Assembly: GCA_023270155.1 (NCBI GenBank)
Contig: JAGLTB010000118.1
Span: 1-40,187, forward strand
Source: Candidatus Heimdallarchaeota archaeon
GTDB lineage: Archaea > Asgardarchaeota > Heimdallarchaeia > Heimdallarchaeales > Heimdallarchaeaceae
Direction of reading: 5' to 3'
DNA length: 40,187 bases
Shown here: positions 20,654 through 39,840 of the stretch, in pieces
Layout: each line of letters starts with the position of its first letter
Numbering within the stretch: the first letter of the stretch is position 1
Position numbers and translations under genes: made by a program
Notes under the pieces: model-generated
What the model saw: the letters and a program-made list of their open reading frames with translations, nothing else
What the model was told of the DNA's origin: nothing
Databases searched by the model: none

Positions 20654-22483
20654 CTAGGAAGAACTAGCTGTAACATCCTTTGATATGAATTTATCATATA
20701 ATTCTTGATAAATCGAAACCAATGTTTCTGTAGCTATTTCCTTTTCAAAGAGTCTTTTTTCTTTGTTTTCAGGTTTTCTTCTTTCGAATAATTTTACTAA
20801 TCTTCTGTAAATTGATTTCATTAAAGACCAAAGTAGAACTGCTGGTAATAGAATGATTTTAAGAAGTACTTTTCCAACTCTTCTAAAGAATTTTCGAAAG
20901 TCAATATTATGCTCTTTTCTAACATCGGGTTTCTTTCCCTTCTCTTTTAATGAGAAATAGGTTTCTGTAAATATGGTTCTTATTTCTCTGAATCGTTTTA
21001 TTATAATCTGTACTATATACTTAATTTCCCAAATAGCTAAAAATGGAGCTATCAGAGGTAAAGATGCATATCCTACATATTTCATTGCGTCCATATCTTC
21101 TAATGATTTGATATAACGTTTGATGGGAGTTGCAAATAAAATCTTGTAAAGATAGAAAATTAAATGCTTTATGTAGAGAAGTAATGAGTATAATATTATC
21201 AACAACGGGAGAGAAATCCCTAAGAAGAAGAATCCAATAAATTTGAAGATCCTAACATATTTGTTCATAGGTCTGAAAGTATCAGTTATATACTGTTGTG
21301 AGCCCAAAGCAAGCGATAGAGCTAATTTCTGATATTCGATATCAGATATTATCTGCTTGTATTTCTTCTCTTGATTTGATATTCCTTTCAATGCCCCAGT
21401 TACAATTACAGATTTATAGAGAAGGTCAGTAATTACTCCATCTCTAATCCTTTGGATTATTGAATTTAAAGCAATTTTCACATCATCATCAGAGAGTTTG
21501 TTTTTATTTTTAAATTTTTCAAAAGCTTCTTTTCTTCTCCAATAGAAGAATGAAGATTCCTTACTCCAAATCAACAAAGCAAACGATCTCGCAGTTTGTT
21601 CAGTTACTTTGGTAAGATCAAACCCTTCTAATGGAACTTCAACTCTTTTTAGGAGCACTTCAAGCATTTCTTTTGATCTGTCAGGGACATTATTTGCATC
21701 TAGTGCCAACAAGCCTTTAACCTTCGCTTTTATCGTAATAAATTCATCAGTCAAATCTAATTTGAATTCCTCATATGTTTCTGAGGAAATAGGAGGTGCA
21801 TCAAAAAAATTAAAGCTACTGCGTCCTAGATAATAAGGAATTGAGAATAAATTCTCTATATCCTGATATAAAGCTGCCCAGCGATATGCTCCTAATCTCA
21901 TGAAAATCTTACTTGTATTATGAAAAACAACATAAAGAGGACCAAAAACTGTGATAATCCACGATATAATCAACATAATGGTTCCTAATGCTAACCCAAT
22001 TACGATTGTTGGAATTTCTGGCCATTTATTACTGATCATAACAACTATTTTTTCTCCCCAAATAGCAGAGGGGATGACAATGAGTAAAATAGGAGTGATA
22101 CCCATACTAATTGCTTGGCCTATAGTTCTTCGTAAAGGATAAGCTTTTTTCACTTTTTGTCCTTTAAGTTCAAGCTCTTCTAATTCTTCTTTAACCTCAA
22201 CAACTTCTTTTGATTTTTTTCCAGCAAACATTTCCGAAGCTGCTGTTGTTGATTTTCTTACCATTTCAAAGAATGGAACATATTCCCTCAGTGATTTTGG
22301 AATTAAGAAATCAAAAATGATTAAGAATAACTTTGCTCCAACAAAAACTGTAGTAAATAAACTAGTCAGAAAGGACACAGAAATGCTTGTAGCTCTTGTG
22401 AATTCCTGTTTTTTATCTATGACTTCAGCATTCTCAACTTCATCATTTTGCTCTATTTTAGAAGTTTCACTATCTGATGACAT
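20654..22483 (-). CDS. Large multi-TM protein of unknown function, paralogue of 38128-39840
   Basis: Shares KAYPLRR, GAYRWAALYQ, SFNFFDAPPISSETYEEFKLDL, TGALKG...SDIEYQKLALSLALGSQQYI and a C-terminal FEKEIATETLVSIYQELYDKF with the 38128 protein. Confidence 0.85.
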   Translation of the reverse strand: MSSDSETSKIEQNDEVENAEVIDKKQEFTRATSISVSFLTSLFTTVFVGAKLFLIIFDFLIPKSLREYVPFFEMVRKSTTAASEMFAGKKSKEVVEVKEELEELELKGQKVKKAYPLRRTIGQAISMGITPILLIVIPSAIWGEKIVVMISNKWPEIPTIVIGLALGTIMLIISWIITVFGPLYVVFHNTSKIFMRLGAYRWAALYQDIENLFSIPYYLGRSSFNFFDAPPISSETYEEFKLDLTDEFITIKAKVKGLLALDANNVPDRSKEMLEVLLKRVEVPLEGFDLTKVTEQTARSFALLIWSKESSFFYWRRKEAFEKFKNKNKLSDDDVKIALNSIIQRIRDGVITDLLYKSVIVTGALKGISNQEKKYKQIISDIEYQKLALSLALGSQQYITDTFRPMNKYVRIFKFIGFFFLGISLPLLIILYSLLLYIKHLIFYLYKILFATPIKRYIKSLEDMDAMKYVGYASLPLIAPFLAIWEIKYIVQIIIKRFREIRTIFTETYFSLKEKGKKPDVRKEHNIDFRKFFRRVGKVLLKIILLPAVLLWSLMKSIYRRLVKLFERRKPENKEKRLFEKEIATETLVSIYQELYDKFISKDVTASSS

Positions 22484-22547: not shown

Positions 22548-24500
22548 TTATTTTATCAGATGGTTGGAGATGTGATCCTCTATAGTATTGATTTCTTCTT
22601 GAGTACAGTCATATATTTGATAAACTAGCTCATCTATTTTCTTATCAATTTCCTCGTCATATTCTGTAAGCATTTGATTAACATATCCTTCTAATAACCG
22701 TTGATTTGATTCAGAAGGAATAAGAAACGGTAGGTCATGAATAAACGTTGGTAAATAATGAAGATATTTACCCATGATTTCTGAACCTGAGAACATTATA
22801 TTATGCATGTAACTAAACAATTTACTATTCAATAGTCCTAAAATGCATTCTAACGAAAGATTTAGTAGTTTTCCAATATCTCGTAGGTGTCCTAAAAGAA
22901 AAATATCTTTACACGCGTAACCTTGCTTATCTATAGTTGCTCTCATTCTCAAAGCGTGTTGACAAATGATGATCTTTTTCTCCTTGAAGTATTTCAAATC
23001 TTGAAAATTATTTTTAAGAGCTTTTGATTTTTCTCTATCGTAATCTAGCCAGAAACCATTCCACGTTACTTTATATCTCTCAACTTCTCTATTTCCACCA
23101 AAAGGTTTACCCCCCAGTAATTTTTGTGGATTTACTCCTTTTGGAGTTTTGGAAACAAATTGCTCCCTTAATCCTTTCCTATGAAAAGAGATAGCCCATC
23201 TGAATCTTACGATATCCCCAAGAGAGTGTTGAGATTGAGATAATGTTCTTTCCAAGAAGGGGAAAGCAATGTTCTGAGGGAAGTAGATGGTTTTATTTAT
23301 TGTTCTTTCGAAAAATTCAGGACAAATATACTCAGCTCTAGTATGTAGATCAGATGATGAAATTTTTTCCAACTCAACGTTTGTGAGCATTTTAATTGGG
23401 TCTTCTTTCTTTCTTTGTTTATTCAGCAGTAAAATTATAGGATATACAGCTGGTTGGAAAACTTTCTGATGAGCTAAATTCAGGATTTGAGAGATAAGGT
23501 TCTCCTCTAGAAATCTTTCCCTGAATCGTCTTGCGAATTTGGATATAAGGAATTTATTAGGAATTATATATCCTAATTTACCTGTATCTTTTAACATACT
23601 TGCTCCTAATACTAGGAATAATGCGTAAATATCATAATGTCTCCTAGCGTCTTCTGGAAAATTCTCTTGGCAAATTTTCTTTGTTCTTGTATCCATTTTC
23701 TTCGATTCTATATATGGAGGATTTCCTACCACATAATCGAATTTGCTTGTCTTGATCTCTTTAATTATATCAGAGTCAGAATTGCCTTTTCGAACCATCG
23801 AATTTGTTTTGTGTACATTTATTGTTATTGGATTTTCTAAAGGATAATCAGCTTTGAGAGTTTCTATTAGCACCATTACTATGTTGATCTTTGATAATAA
23901 TACAGCAATAGAATCTATATCAAATCCAAAAATTGTTTTCTCCGTAAACCTAACAATTCTTTGTGGAGATAAATGTTGTTTCTTACCTAAAGCACATATT
24001 CTCCTTGTTGCTCTAGATAAAAACAATCCGGATCCACATGCTAAATCTATTAATTTCGCTGACTTTGAATTCTCAATTGATAATGGATAGTTAAGCTGTT
24101 CCAGAATATAATCAATAATTGGTAGTGGAGTGAAAACTATTCCTCTATTCTGTTTTTTTGTTTCTGATATGATTTGTTGATATAGTAAACCAAAAGGGTC
24201 ATCCTTTTCATTGAATTCTTTTGAAGCGAAAATATCTCTTAATTCTTGATAGAATGCTATGTACTTTCCATCAAATTTCTTTGAAAAAATTCCTGAGAAG
24301 TGACGTTTAGCTTTTTCATATTTTTCTGTTAAATTATTAGTATTTTTTAATAATCCGTTTTTATCAGCAATATGAATTAAGAATAACTCCCCCAAGATTT
24401 GAAAATTCCTAAAAACAAGATTTCGACCATTAAGATTGTTATTTGTATTATAATAGTTTATTTTATTATATGTAACTAAAAGCTCAGAGGTTATATCCAT
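22548..24500 (-). CDS. N6-adenine DNA methyltransferase, Eco57I/TaqI-C-like, solitary
   Basis: GIVFTPLPIIDYIL, LIDLACGSGLFLSRATRRI (SAM motif I), VVGNPPYIESKK (motif IV NPPY), C-terminal specificity-type region ending IDELVYQIYDCTQEEINTIE. Confidence 0.88.
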   Translation of the reverse strand: MDITSELLVTYNKINYYNTNNNLNGRNLVFRNFQILGELFLIHIADKNGLLKNTNNLTEKYEKAKRHFSGIFSKKFDGKYIAFYQELRDIFASKEFNEKDDPFGLLYQQIISETKKQNRGIVFTPLPIIDYILEQLNYPLSIENSKSAKLIDLACGSGLFLSRATRRICALGKKQHLSPQRIVRFTEKTIFGFDIDSIAVLLSKINIVMVLIETLKADYPLENPITINVHKTNSMVRKGNSDSDIIKEIKTSKFDYVVGNPPYIESKKMDTRTKKICQENFPEDARRHYDIYALFLVLGASMLKDTGKLGYIIPNKFLISKFARRFRERFLEENLISQILNLAHQKVFQPAVYPIILLLNKQRKKEDPIKMLTNVELEKISSSDLHTRAEYICPEFFERTINKTIYFPQNIAFPFLERTLSQSQHSLGDIVRFRWAISFHRKGLREQFVSKTPKGVNPQKLLGGKPFGGNREVERYKVTWNGFWLDYDREKSKALKNNFQDLKYFKEKKIIICQHALRMRATIDKQGYACKDIFLLGHLRDIGKLLNLSLECILGLLNSKLFSYMHNIMFSGSEIMGKYLHYLPTFIHDLPFLIPSESNQRLLEGYVNQMLTEYDEEIDKKIDELVYQIYDCTQEEINTIEDHISNHLIK

Positions 24501-24572: not shown

Positions 24573-25745
24573 ATGTATACTATGGTATCACGTTTTCTTC
24601 TCTGTACAGATATAGAAAAGAAAGCGGAAGAAGATCTTTTGTCAATCTTAATCTCTGATAATCCTGATCCAAAACTTTTCAATTATTCCCCCTATATCCT
24701 GAGGAGAGTAAATGAAAAATTGTTAGAAGAGGGAAGATCAATAGGATTAGGATACATATCTGATAGAAAAATAGTTGATTCATATTGGGAATCCAACCCA
24801 TATGAAATGAAAAATGATTTAGAAATACGAATAATTTATGGTTCTCATGTAGAATGTCCAGATGAAATTCTTCTTTTTCTAAAGGATAACACTGTAAGAA
24901 ATAAATTGCTCTCAGATCTGGAATCTATACCAAAACTAAGAGTTCGAAATAATTTTCTTTTTAGATTTAGAACACCTTATAGAGATAGTACACTTGATGA
25001 TATCTGCGAACAGATTAGAAGTTTAGCAGTTGAAAAGAATCTGAAAACTGAAACAGAAATTTTCTATTTAGAAACTGAAATAACTGAAACTGATAACTTT
25101 CTAATACGCTGGAATATTCCTGAGAAATTCTCATTTAAATGTTTAAAATGTAATTTCTGTGAATATCCTAGCAATTTTTCTGCTAATCCAATACCTAACA
25201 ATCTAGGAAACACTGAGGAATTCTTAATTACTTTCGGAAATAAAATTTGCTTTCCATGTAACTTGCCTTCACTTAGTTATTCAGAAGCTATGAAAATATC
25301 GGAAGAATACAACTACTCTCTTAATGATATCTCAAGACCTATTTTTGGTAAAGAAAGAGTAAATACTGATAAAATGGAAGTTGGTTTGTGTATAAAACAA
25401 AACGATGGATTATGTATCTTTCAAGAAATAAAGACTAGAGAATGCAAGATATACAACCATGCACCTTTTAATTGTAAATTTTATCCTTTTTTGGTTTCAA
25501 AAGTAAGTGATAATGAGATAAGTGTAGACTTAGATTTTCCATGTCCAGGAGTTGGAAAAGGTAGTAGTGTTAATATGGAAAAAAAACTCTCCCAATTACA
25601 AGCACATCTAAACAAAACTACACAACAATTCGAGACAAGTATGGATGAAATTAATAATATGTGGGGGAAACAAGCAATTTGGAGAGAAGGAGAGAGAGTC
25701 ACAGATGAAGATGTAAAATATTCAAAAACTGCTTTCTTCCCATAG
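24573..25745 (+). CDS. YkgJ-like zinc/iron-chelating domain protein with N-terminal extension
   Basis: CLKCNFCEYPSNF...ICFPCNLPSLSYSEAMKI...GLCIKQNDGLCIFQEIKTRECKIYNHAPFNCKFYPF: Cys pattern of the YkgJ/CxxCxxCC family. Confidence 0.65.
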   Translation: MYTMVSRFLLCTDIEKKAEEDLLSILISDNPDPKLFNYSPYILRRVNEKLLEEGRSIGLGYISDRKIVDSYWESNPYEMKNDLEIRIIYGSHVECPDEILLFLKDNTVRNKLLSDLESIPKLRVRNNFLFRFRTPYRDSTLDDICEQIRSLAVEKNLKTETEIFYLETEITETDNFLIRWNIPEKFSFKCLKCNFCEYPSNFSANPIPNNLGNTEEFLITFGNKICFPCNLPSLSYSEAMKISEEYNYSLNDISRPIFGKERVNTDKMEVGLCIKQNDGLCIFQEIKTRECKIYNHAPFNCKFYPFLVSKVSDNEISVDLDFPCPGVGKGSSVNMEKKLSQLQAHLNKTTQQFETSMDEINNMWGKQAIWREGERVTDEDVKYSKTAFFP

Positions 25746-25750
25746 ATTAT

Positions 25751-26242
25751 TTACATATATCTTAATTTTAATCGATTGTATTTTGCACTGCAAGTAGAAC
25801 AGAGGGTTGATGGTTTGTTAATCAATACTTCAAAGCTTTCTGCGGAATGCATTATACATTCATTTCTACAGGCACTCAATCCCAAAACTATTCCAACAAA
25901 ATATGCAGCTGCTTTGGCAACCAAAGTTCTAGTAGCCATTTTTGCGGAAGAAACAACACTCCCTTTTAACAGTTCTGCATAACCAAAAACTGATTTTTGA
26001 TCTAAAGAAATAGGTACAGTGATTAACCACAAGAAAAATGATAATCTTTCTGCTACCATCTGATCAAGAAGATTACGAACATCATATGCATTTGTAAGAT
26101 CATCCCAAGCATTTACTCTAGGAATATGAACTCCTACTGAACGAAACTGCAGATCATACAAATCCCTGAGTACATTTTCTACATGTTCAGAGATTTCATC
26201 TGCAATTTTTTCACAATAATATATCTTGAAATCCTTGGGCAA
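25751..26242 (-). CDS. Archaemetzincin-family protein, predicted catalytically inactive
   Basis: IPRVNAWDDLTNAYDVRNLL, VFGYAELLKGSVVSSAKM, then YFVGIVLGLSACRNECIMHSAESFEV...PSTLCSTCSAKY aligns with the archaemetzincin HExxHxxGxxHC...CxM...CxxC region. Confidence 0.75.
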   Translation of the reverse strand: MPKDFKIYYCEKIADEISEHVENVLRDLYDLQFRSVGVHIPRVNAWDDLTNAYDVRNLLDQMVAERLSFFLWLITVPISLDQKSVFGYAELLKGSVVSSAKMATRTLVAKAAAYFVGIVLGLSACRNECIMHSAESFEVLINKPSTLCSTCSAKYNRLKLRYM

Positions 26243-26315: not shown

Positions 26316-26786
26316 TCATTTTTCTTTCATACGATAAATTGCCTTAGAGATCAGTTTAGCTTCTTTTCCCATTTTAAGTAAAATTTCTATCTCACCATCA
26401 TCTATCTTAAGTTTAAAATCTCTCTCTATTTTCATATTGGGAGGAAGATTATAACCAGAATAGAAAGAACTTGTCATTTTGAGAAGTTTAGTTCTTTTTG
26501 ATGAGATTAGAGAATTAATCTCAATATATCCTTCTTCATTAAATACAAAGTGCTTTAATTCATCTTTTAATTTATCAAAAAAGAAGAAACCTGTTTCAAG
26601 GATTCTTTCTTCGTTTCCAAGATTAATTTTCTGCTTATACTGTATAATATCTATTCCATGATGAGTGAATATAATAGTCGATGTTGTTTTTTTTCCATCT
26701 TTTTCTATATTCCCTTCCCACCTTCCGATCAAGTCAGACATATCATGTATTGGATTATAGAATTCCATTCTATTTTTCTCAAACAA
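26316..26786 (-). CDS. Hypothetical protein, possible lipocalin/nitrobindin-like beta-barrel
   Basis: LIGRWEGNIEKDGKKTTSTIIFTHHG then alternating beta-strand pattern; only the LxGxWxG start suggests the fold. Confidence 0.45.
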   Translation of the reverse strand: MFEKNRMEFYNPIHDMSDLIGRWEGNIEKDGKKTTSTIIFTHHGIDIIQYKQKINLGNEERILETGFFFFDKLKDELKHFVFNEEGYIEINSLISSKRTKLLKMTSSFYSGYNLPPNMKIERDFKLKIDDGEIEILLKMGKEAKLISKAIYRMKEK

Positions 26787-38127: not shown

Positions 38128-39840
38128 ATGAATATGAGCATTGGTAAATTGTTTAAAATGTTCTTACTTCCTTTCTTATGGATAGGAGGTATAGTTCTCT
38201 ATCTTGCTGTTGTACTTGCTAAATTCATCTTTCAGATCTATGAGATTCTTATCCCTCGAGGTTTACGTGAGCTTGTTCCCATTCTTAATCTCTGGAGAAA
38301 ATACCTGGTTTATATTTCCAACTTATTTTCTAGTAGTGAGAAAATGGAAATGATTAAGATTGAGGAGGAAATTGATGAATTAATTATCCGAGAGGATCGA
38401 ATAAATAAAGCATATCCTATCCAAAGAGGGGTTGGTGAAACCTATGATCATGTTCTCATCATAGTTGTTATTATTGTAGCTTCTCTGGTTTTAATTCAAA
38501 GCCAAACAACCAACTTTGATGCTCTATTAGATGCTATAACCAACAGATTTGAATTCTTCCAAAGACTTGGTGAAACTGCTCGATGGTTGCTACTCGCTGT
38601 AATCGCAATTATTGGTTCTACTGTTATGGGTATTCTTTCTTTTATTGCTACTATCACTGGTCCTATTTACAGTTTATTCCACAAATCAAGCTTAAGAATG
38701 GTCAAAATTGGTGCTTACAGATTTGCTTCAATTTATCAGAAAGTTGAGGATCTTTTTGCTCTTCCGTATCTAGCAAGCAAGGCAAGTTTCTCATTTTTTG
38801 ATGCACCCCCTATATCGCAGGAAACGTATGAGGAGTTTAAAATTGACCTAATAGGTGATTTGAAGAATCTGAGAAGAAGATTTACTAATATTCTAAATTT
38901 GGATCCTACATCTTTGTCAGACAAAGCCAAAGAGGTTTATCGAAGATTTCTCTCATCTAAAACAGAAGATCGTTTGGATATGACTCAAATTGAAGATTAT
39001 ATTTCACGTGCCTTTGCTCTTGAAATATGGCAAAAAGAGACATCTATGATACCTTGGCTAAAAGAACCTGGATTGGGTGCTTTTTCAAAAAAACACAATC
39101 TCTCTTACAGAGAAGCTAAGCAAACTTTTGATTTTGTTACTGTAAAACTCAAAGATAAATTCGTCTCCAAACCATTCTACAGTTCAATTTTACTTACAGG
39201 TGCACTGAAAGGTGTAATGGCAGTAGAAAATCGTTATGATATGCCGATGAGTGATATTGAATACAATCAGTTAGCTTTCTCTTTAGCACTTGGAGCTCAA
39301 AGATATATCTTGGATCACTTCACAAAACCCAAATTCAAACGAAGCTTAAGAATCAAATTACGAAATCTTTCTTATGGATTAGTGGTTCCTTACATAGAAC
39401 TCTTCGATGCCTTCGTATCTTATGGAAAACATATAGGAAGTCATCTGAAAAGAAGATTCGCTAAAGGATGGGGTAAAAGAGCTGGTTTATTTCTTGGAAC
39501 AAGATTTGCTGAAATTCAAAAGGGATTATTTTCTATTCTTTTGGAAGAAGATGAAAAGAAAGATAAAAAAGAGAAACAAAATTTAGCAGAAGCAAAAGAA
39601 GTTCTTAAGATGCTCTGGAAAGCTTTCTTATTTTTATTCAAAGTTATCCTTGCTCTACCTTTAAGTGTCTGGTATATGCTTAAGTTATTCTTCCAAATAT
39701 TCGTTAGCATCTGGAGATATAATCAACCAGAAGCTAAAAAGAAAAGGAATTTTGAAAAGGATTTAGCCAAAGAGACAATGGTTGCTATGTACGATGAAAT
39801 ATATTCAAAATTGGTTTTAGAAACTTACTACTATACTTGA
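38128..39840 (+). CDS. Large multi-TM protein of unknown function, paralogue of 20654-22483
   Basis: KAYPIQR, GAYRFASIYQ, SFSFFDAPPISQETYEEFKIDL, TGALKGV...SDIEYNQLAFSLALGAQRYILD, NFEKDLAKETMVAMYDEIYSKL shared with 20654-22483. Confidence 0.85.
   Translation: MNMSIGKLFKMFLLPFLWIGGIVLYLAVVLAKFIFQIYEILIPRGLRELVPILNLWRKYLVYISNLFSSSEKMEMIKIEEEIDELIIREDRINKAYPIQRGVGETYDHVLIIVVIIVASLVLIQSQTTNFDALLDAITNRFEFFQRLGETARWLLLAVIAIIGSTVMGILSFIATITGPIYSLFHKSSLRMVKIGAYRFASIYQKVEDLFALPYLASKASFSFFDAPPISQETYEEFKIDLIGDLKNLRRRFTNILNLDPTSLSDKAKEVYRRFLSSKTEDRLDMTQIEDYISRAFALEIWQKETSMIPWLKEPGLGAFSKKHNLSYREAKQTFDFVTVKLKDKFVSKPFYSSILLTGALKGVMAVENRYDMPMSDIEYNQLAFSLALGAQRYILDHFTKPKFKRSLRIKLRNLSYGLVVPYIELFDAFVSYGKHIGSHLKRRFAKGWGKRAGLFLGTRFAEIQKGLFSILLEEDEKKDKKEKQNLAEAKEVLKMLWKAFLFLFKVILALPLSVWYMLKLFFQIFVSIWRYNQPEAKKKRNFEKDLAKETMVAMYDEIYSKLVLETYYYT

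Follow-up and report, generated by a model that had tools for sequence, protein, structure and literature searches.

The reverse-strand open reading frame at 25751-26242 of the window (the whole 40,187-nucleotide stretch of Asgard archaeal DNA that was analysed) encodes a pseudo-archaemetzincin: a protein of the M54 peptidase family with all four catalytic residues replaced, the ligands of its structural zinc retained, and an adjacent partner gene coding for a nitrobindin-like β-barrel. We lean, with slightly better than even confidence, towards the interpretation that it is a non-catalytic protein which would form a functional unit with the barrel protein encoded upstream, following a single loss of the catalytic site. 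It is a clear example, from the archaea, of a former metalloprotease that has been kept as a non-catalytic protein, and some relatives have apparently lost the live copy.

Family assignment and the former active site

The frame is open over 163 amino acids from a TTG start. Pfam Peptidase_M54 (PF07998) matches the window copy with 26.5 bits against a gathering score of 24.4, and recovers all 21 members of its clade with E-values of 0.1 or better. The NCBIfam archmetzin model aligns with residues 6-154, nearly the whole length (E 1e-11), with a score that falls short of its 145-bit cut-off, as does that of the intact paralogue (129 bits). Among solved structures the best sequence matches are to AfAmzA (3zvs/4axq). 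The best AlphaFold2 model has a pLDDT of 90.7 and a pTM of 0.88, two of the five models being confident and three poor; Foldseek searches with it returned archaemetzincins as the top five matches (best E 3e-12, TM 0.82-0.86 by query length), with AmzA as the best solved match (TM 0.83). Thus, the profile and structural comparisons bear out the proposal of an earlier note, made from the letters alone, that the frame encodes an archaemetzincin scaffold, and the protein can be taken as confirmed in M54 by descent and, as predicted, by fold. Chance resemblance to the motif is ruled out by the same profile matches and predicted fold.

The segment YFVGIVLGLSAC (residues 114-125; 25868-25903, reverse strand), delimited from the sequence and a column comparison with intact paralogues, aligns in register with the active-site motif HExxHxxGxxHC. 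G117, G121, L122 and C125 of the motif region are retained, and the His, Glu, His and His are replaced by Y114, F115, I118 and A124. It is followed by the Cys4 structural-zinc element and Met-turn (residues 125-151; 25790-25870, reverse strand), in which C125, C129, M131, C148 and C151 are all intact. Both the change of H-E-H-H to Y-F-I-A with G, L and C kept, and the preservation of the C-x-M and downstream structural cysteines, had been read in this manner in the earlier note and agree with the alignment. Its further statement that the upstream motif normally reads FGEAEL does not hold, as the intact paralogues of the family have FGLA(T/S); Y88, E90 and K93 are instead new features of this region, fixed in the clade lacking the catalytic site.

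Metzincin catalysis requires both zinc and a glutamate. Since all the ligands and the base are gone, peptidase activity by the metzincin mechanism is to be regarded as excluded for this protein, as judged from its residues. A structural zinc is probably still bound by the conserved cysteines.

Conservation, selection and origin of the clade

Full-length orthologues are present in 21 of the 24 genomes searched of the window's Asgard family and none of them has stops. The 20 others show 45-88% identity to the window copy, the nearest (88%) lying in record JABLTJ010000007.1; one scan of contigs with the window copy had found only one close relative among the contigs scanned. Twenty of the 21 start with TTG and one with GTG. 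None retains any of the H/E/H/H residues at its position and hence none has an intact HExxHxxGxxH: by the ligands and glutamate that define a catalytic archaemetzincin, all 21 fall outside, with the four positions replaced throughout. The four cysteines (C125, C129, C148, C151) and M131 are invariant in all 21. The closest pairs within this clade have pairwise dN/dS values of 0.17-0.31, indicating purifying selection; the closest pairs among the intact family copies give 0.09-0.24. Of the differences among the clade's copies, 49% fall at third codon positions.

A decaying pseudogene or an assembly error might be suspected from residue 111 (25910-25912), which is Ala in the window copy alone and Glu in the 20 other orthologues and 17 intact paralogues. 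Against this, the loss is common to 21 separate assemblies, the frame is open in every one of them and selection is purifying, so that this explanation has a negligible probability and we consider it ruled out. The view of the earlier note that this is a retained non-catalytic protein rather than a decayed gene fits the purifying selection, the predicted AmzA fold and the intact paralogue in the same genome. Neither of the two outcomes that the earlier note had named as refuting its reading is observed: there is no intact motif in any of the 21 orthologues, and the profiles do assign the protein to M54. Residue 111 belongs to the KE that precedes the former HExxH.

The former first zinc-histidine position is always aromatic (F or Y) in the clade and the former glutamate position is occupied by H, Q or F. 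The columns of the former second and third zinc histidines are at the 86th and 99th percentile of entropy, among the most variable of the protein, and therefore no replacement metal ligand is held there. The zinc site thus appears not merely altered: to go by the aligned columns, nothing is kept at those positions as a metal-ligand set. At the same time 14 positions are fixed only in this clade, among them E11, D15, W46, Y88, E90, K93, R157, R161 and Y162. Y88, E90 and K93 are placed on the cleft rim and others of the new invariant residues at W46 and in the C-terminal RY, the cleft placement of some of these clade-specific residues being read by alignment with the edge strand of AmzA. Such residues, e.g. 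Y88, E90, K93 and the C-terminal RY, are candidates for a contact surface. Alternatively, E11, D15, E90 and K93, which all 21 copies share and no intact family copy has at those positions, could support a new enzymatic activity on the old scaffold; we consider this improbable because the lost site has not been replaced by a conserved His/Asp/Glu triad and two of the four former catalytic positions vary without constraint.

A search for an active paralogue, which the earlier note had proposed, found an intact archaemetzincin (HECGHILGLGHC; L001) on contig C49 of the window's genome. In a maximum-likelihood tree the 21 copies without the catalytic site form one clade (100/100) apart from the 17 intact family copies, and in the search of the phylum the clade scores 253-296 bits and anything else at most 115. 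The 60 M54 loci whose motifs were read in other Asgard families include no whole-motif loss, only partial ones: the glutamate is clearly replaced by Q (HQxGH) in L089 (G053) and L093 (G055), and the third histidine by Ala in L100 (G220). Given the single clade and the lack of whole losses in those other families, the catalytic site was most likely lost in its entirety in a single event that preceded the divergence of the two carrier genera. One of the two HQxGH proteins also lacks the first Cys.

Most carrier genomes, the window's own included, also have the active paralogue, which would suit a role of the protein in regulating that enzyme or competing with it, e.g. through substrate binding or pairing. 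However, five genomes (G010, G017, G018, G022 and G023) have the copy without the catalytic site and no active M54 in two different searches, with the clade profile and with Pfam M54. They form one clade in a quick tree (SH-aLRT 99) and are 79-92% complete; if the absences are independent, the odds that incompleteness hid an active M54 in all five are ~5e-5. The intact archaemetzincin thus seems to have disappeared from this subclade. This argues against the protein working only as a regulator of a live copy, and we deem such a role unlikely.

The nitrobindin-like partner and the parallel with CarG-CarD

The gene upstream of the pseudo-archaemetzincin (26316-26786, reverse strand; the listed start is TTG, with a conserved ATG at 26768) encodes a nitrobindin/THAP4-like β-barrel protein. 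It matches Pfam THAP4_heme-bd (E 1.2e-7), and its structural model (pLDDT 86) retrieves nitrobindins with Foldseek at TM of about 0.72-0.78, including Arabidopsis At1g79260. Its GxWxG and PPN motifs are invariant. The two genes share a strand in the carrier loci, the partner being upstream at a distance of 33-116 bp, which is 73 bp in the window; a conserved AT-rich stretch before the TTG start of the pseudo-archaemetzincin could be a separate promoter, so that the two genes make up a putative operon at most. When 231 Asgard genomes were searched with a profile, the partner turned up in exactly the 21 genomes with the pseudo-archaemetzincin, the other 210 having neither, a strict pairing that the earlier note had missed. 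This co-occurrence is limited to one family and hence shared descent explains much of the pairing. As for the members of the family without the pair, in G004 and G011 the contigs begin at or inside the neighbouring methyltransferase gene and there is no RNase III match, so that the locus is probably unassembled there. The third, the single-contig G003, lacks the pair and keeps the methyltransferase and membrane protein genes.

The partner shares, by prediction, the β-barrel of nitrobindin and the C-terminal domain of THAP4. Nitrobindins hold heme via a proximal His (PMC10094804), whereas an alignment of 19 full-length partner proteins shows no column with a conserved His, making the partner itself a candidate pseudo-heme protein. 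We would thus tentatively entertain, at a little less than even chances, an Asgard-specific two-protein unit in which a protease without its catalytic zinc and a nitrobindin without its heme ligand have been co-repurposed for binding or regulation.

A bacterial precedent is provided by CarG of Myxococcus xanthus, an inactive archaemetzincin that is an obligate partner of CarD, the product of the adjacent gene (PMC8156234, PMC9304148). Substitution of each of its four cysteines singly fails to complement (PMC3427221), and in AmzA the Cys4 zinc has been described as structural and as important for stability (PMC3427221). Like CarG, the Asgard protein is archaemetzincin-like, has no catalytic glutamate, keeps the four cysteines and is encoded next to an always co-occurring partner gene. 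They differ in that CarG (HQxxHxxExxHC) has Q for the catalytic glutamate, keeps the three histidines and has two zincs, whereas nothing of the catalytic zinc site is left in the Asgard protein, and in the nature of the partner, which is a CarD protein in one case and a nitrobindin-like barrel in the other. The NCBIfam model NF033824 (Myxo_non_zincin), which we take to represent the CarG family, has a cut-off of 250 bits that is not reached: the window copy scores 19.2 bits and the best orthologue has an E-value of 9.6e-7.

Vertebrate AMZ1 has been described as an aminopeptidase, and its activity has been questioned. Its third histidine is replaced by N, S or T (PMC3427221), so that it resembles the Asgard protein in having a zinc-site residue replaced, but at one position only. 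With AmzA (MEROPS M54; 3zvs, 4axq, 2x7m) the Asgard protein shares the predicted fold, the Met-turn and the Cys4 element (PMC3427221), but AmzA has HExxHxxGxxHC with a catalytic zinc and none of these four catalytic residues is kept here. Inactive archaemetzincins were thus already known, by the E to Q change in Myxococcus and by suspicion in AMZ1, in each case with single replacements; among the archaemetzincin papers retrieved, titles and the opening parts of abstracts describe no Asgard variant with total loss. The Asgard protein stands apart in that all four catalytic residues are gone while the structural zinc ligands are frozen, in that its archaeal host also carries an intact paralogue, and in its strict pairing with a nitrobindin-like gene. 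The case parallels the bacterial CarG-CarD system and supplies a concrete partner gene.

Under the preferred reading of a non-catalytic functional unit, an archaemetzincin duplicate would have lost the whole catalytic zinc site and been retained, with its C-terminal subdomain presumably stapled by the Cys4 zinc, as the conserved cysteines suggest. It would then most likely act by binding, together with the barrel protein, as CarG does with CarD, and from this analogy we infer a physical complex of the two with a regulatory or scaffold task.

The wider gene neighborhood

In all 21 loci the next gene on the same strand codes for an Eco57I/TaqI-like adenine DNA methyltransferase (22548-24500, reverse strand, in the window), which matches type II methyltransferases. 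This arrangement, with a gap of just 36-94 bp in 15 of the 21 loci, raises the alternative that the pseudo-archaemetzincin works mainly with the methyltransferase, as a non-catalytic accessory protein or specificity partner, rather than with the barrel protein. However, the two are ~1.25 kb apart in the window and four relatives, where an opposite-strand gene for a CxxCxxCC-like protein (24573-25745, forward strand) intervenes, a gene absent from that spot in the other carriers; another locus has a gap of 333 bp. Moreover, since G003 retains the methyltransferase and the membrane protein gene without the pair, the methyltransferase appears as a long-standing neighbor that is not tied to it. 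We consider this alternative about as unlikely as regulation of the active paralogue, and continue to favor the barrel protein as the partner.

A role in anti-phage defence was also considered and rejected: PADLOC reports nothing for the pseudo-archaemetzincin and only a weak match for the partner (E 2.8e-4), none of the annotated neighbors was identified as an endonuclease, and the methyltransferase also occurs where the pair is missing.

Conserved after the methyltransferase is a gene for a predicted membrane protein of no named family (20654-22483, reverse strand). Members of this family often occur in tandem in the relatives, and the window encodes a second copy at 38128-39840 on the forward strand.
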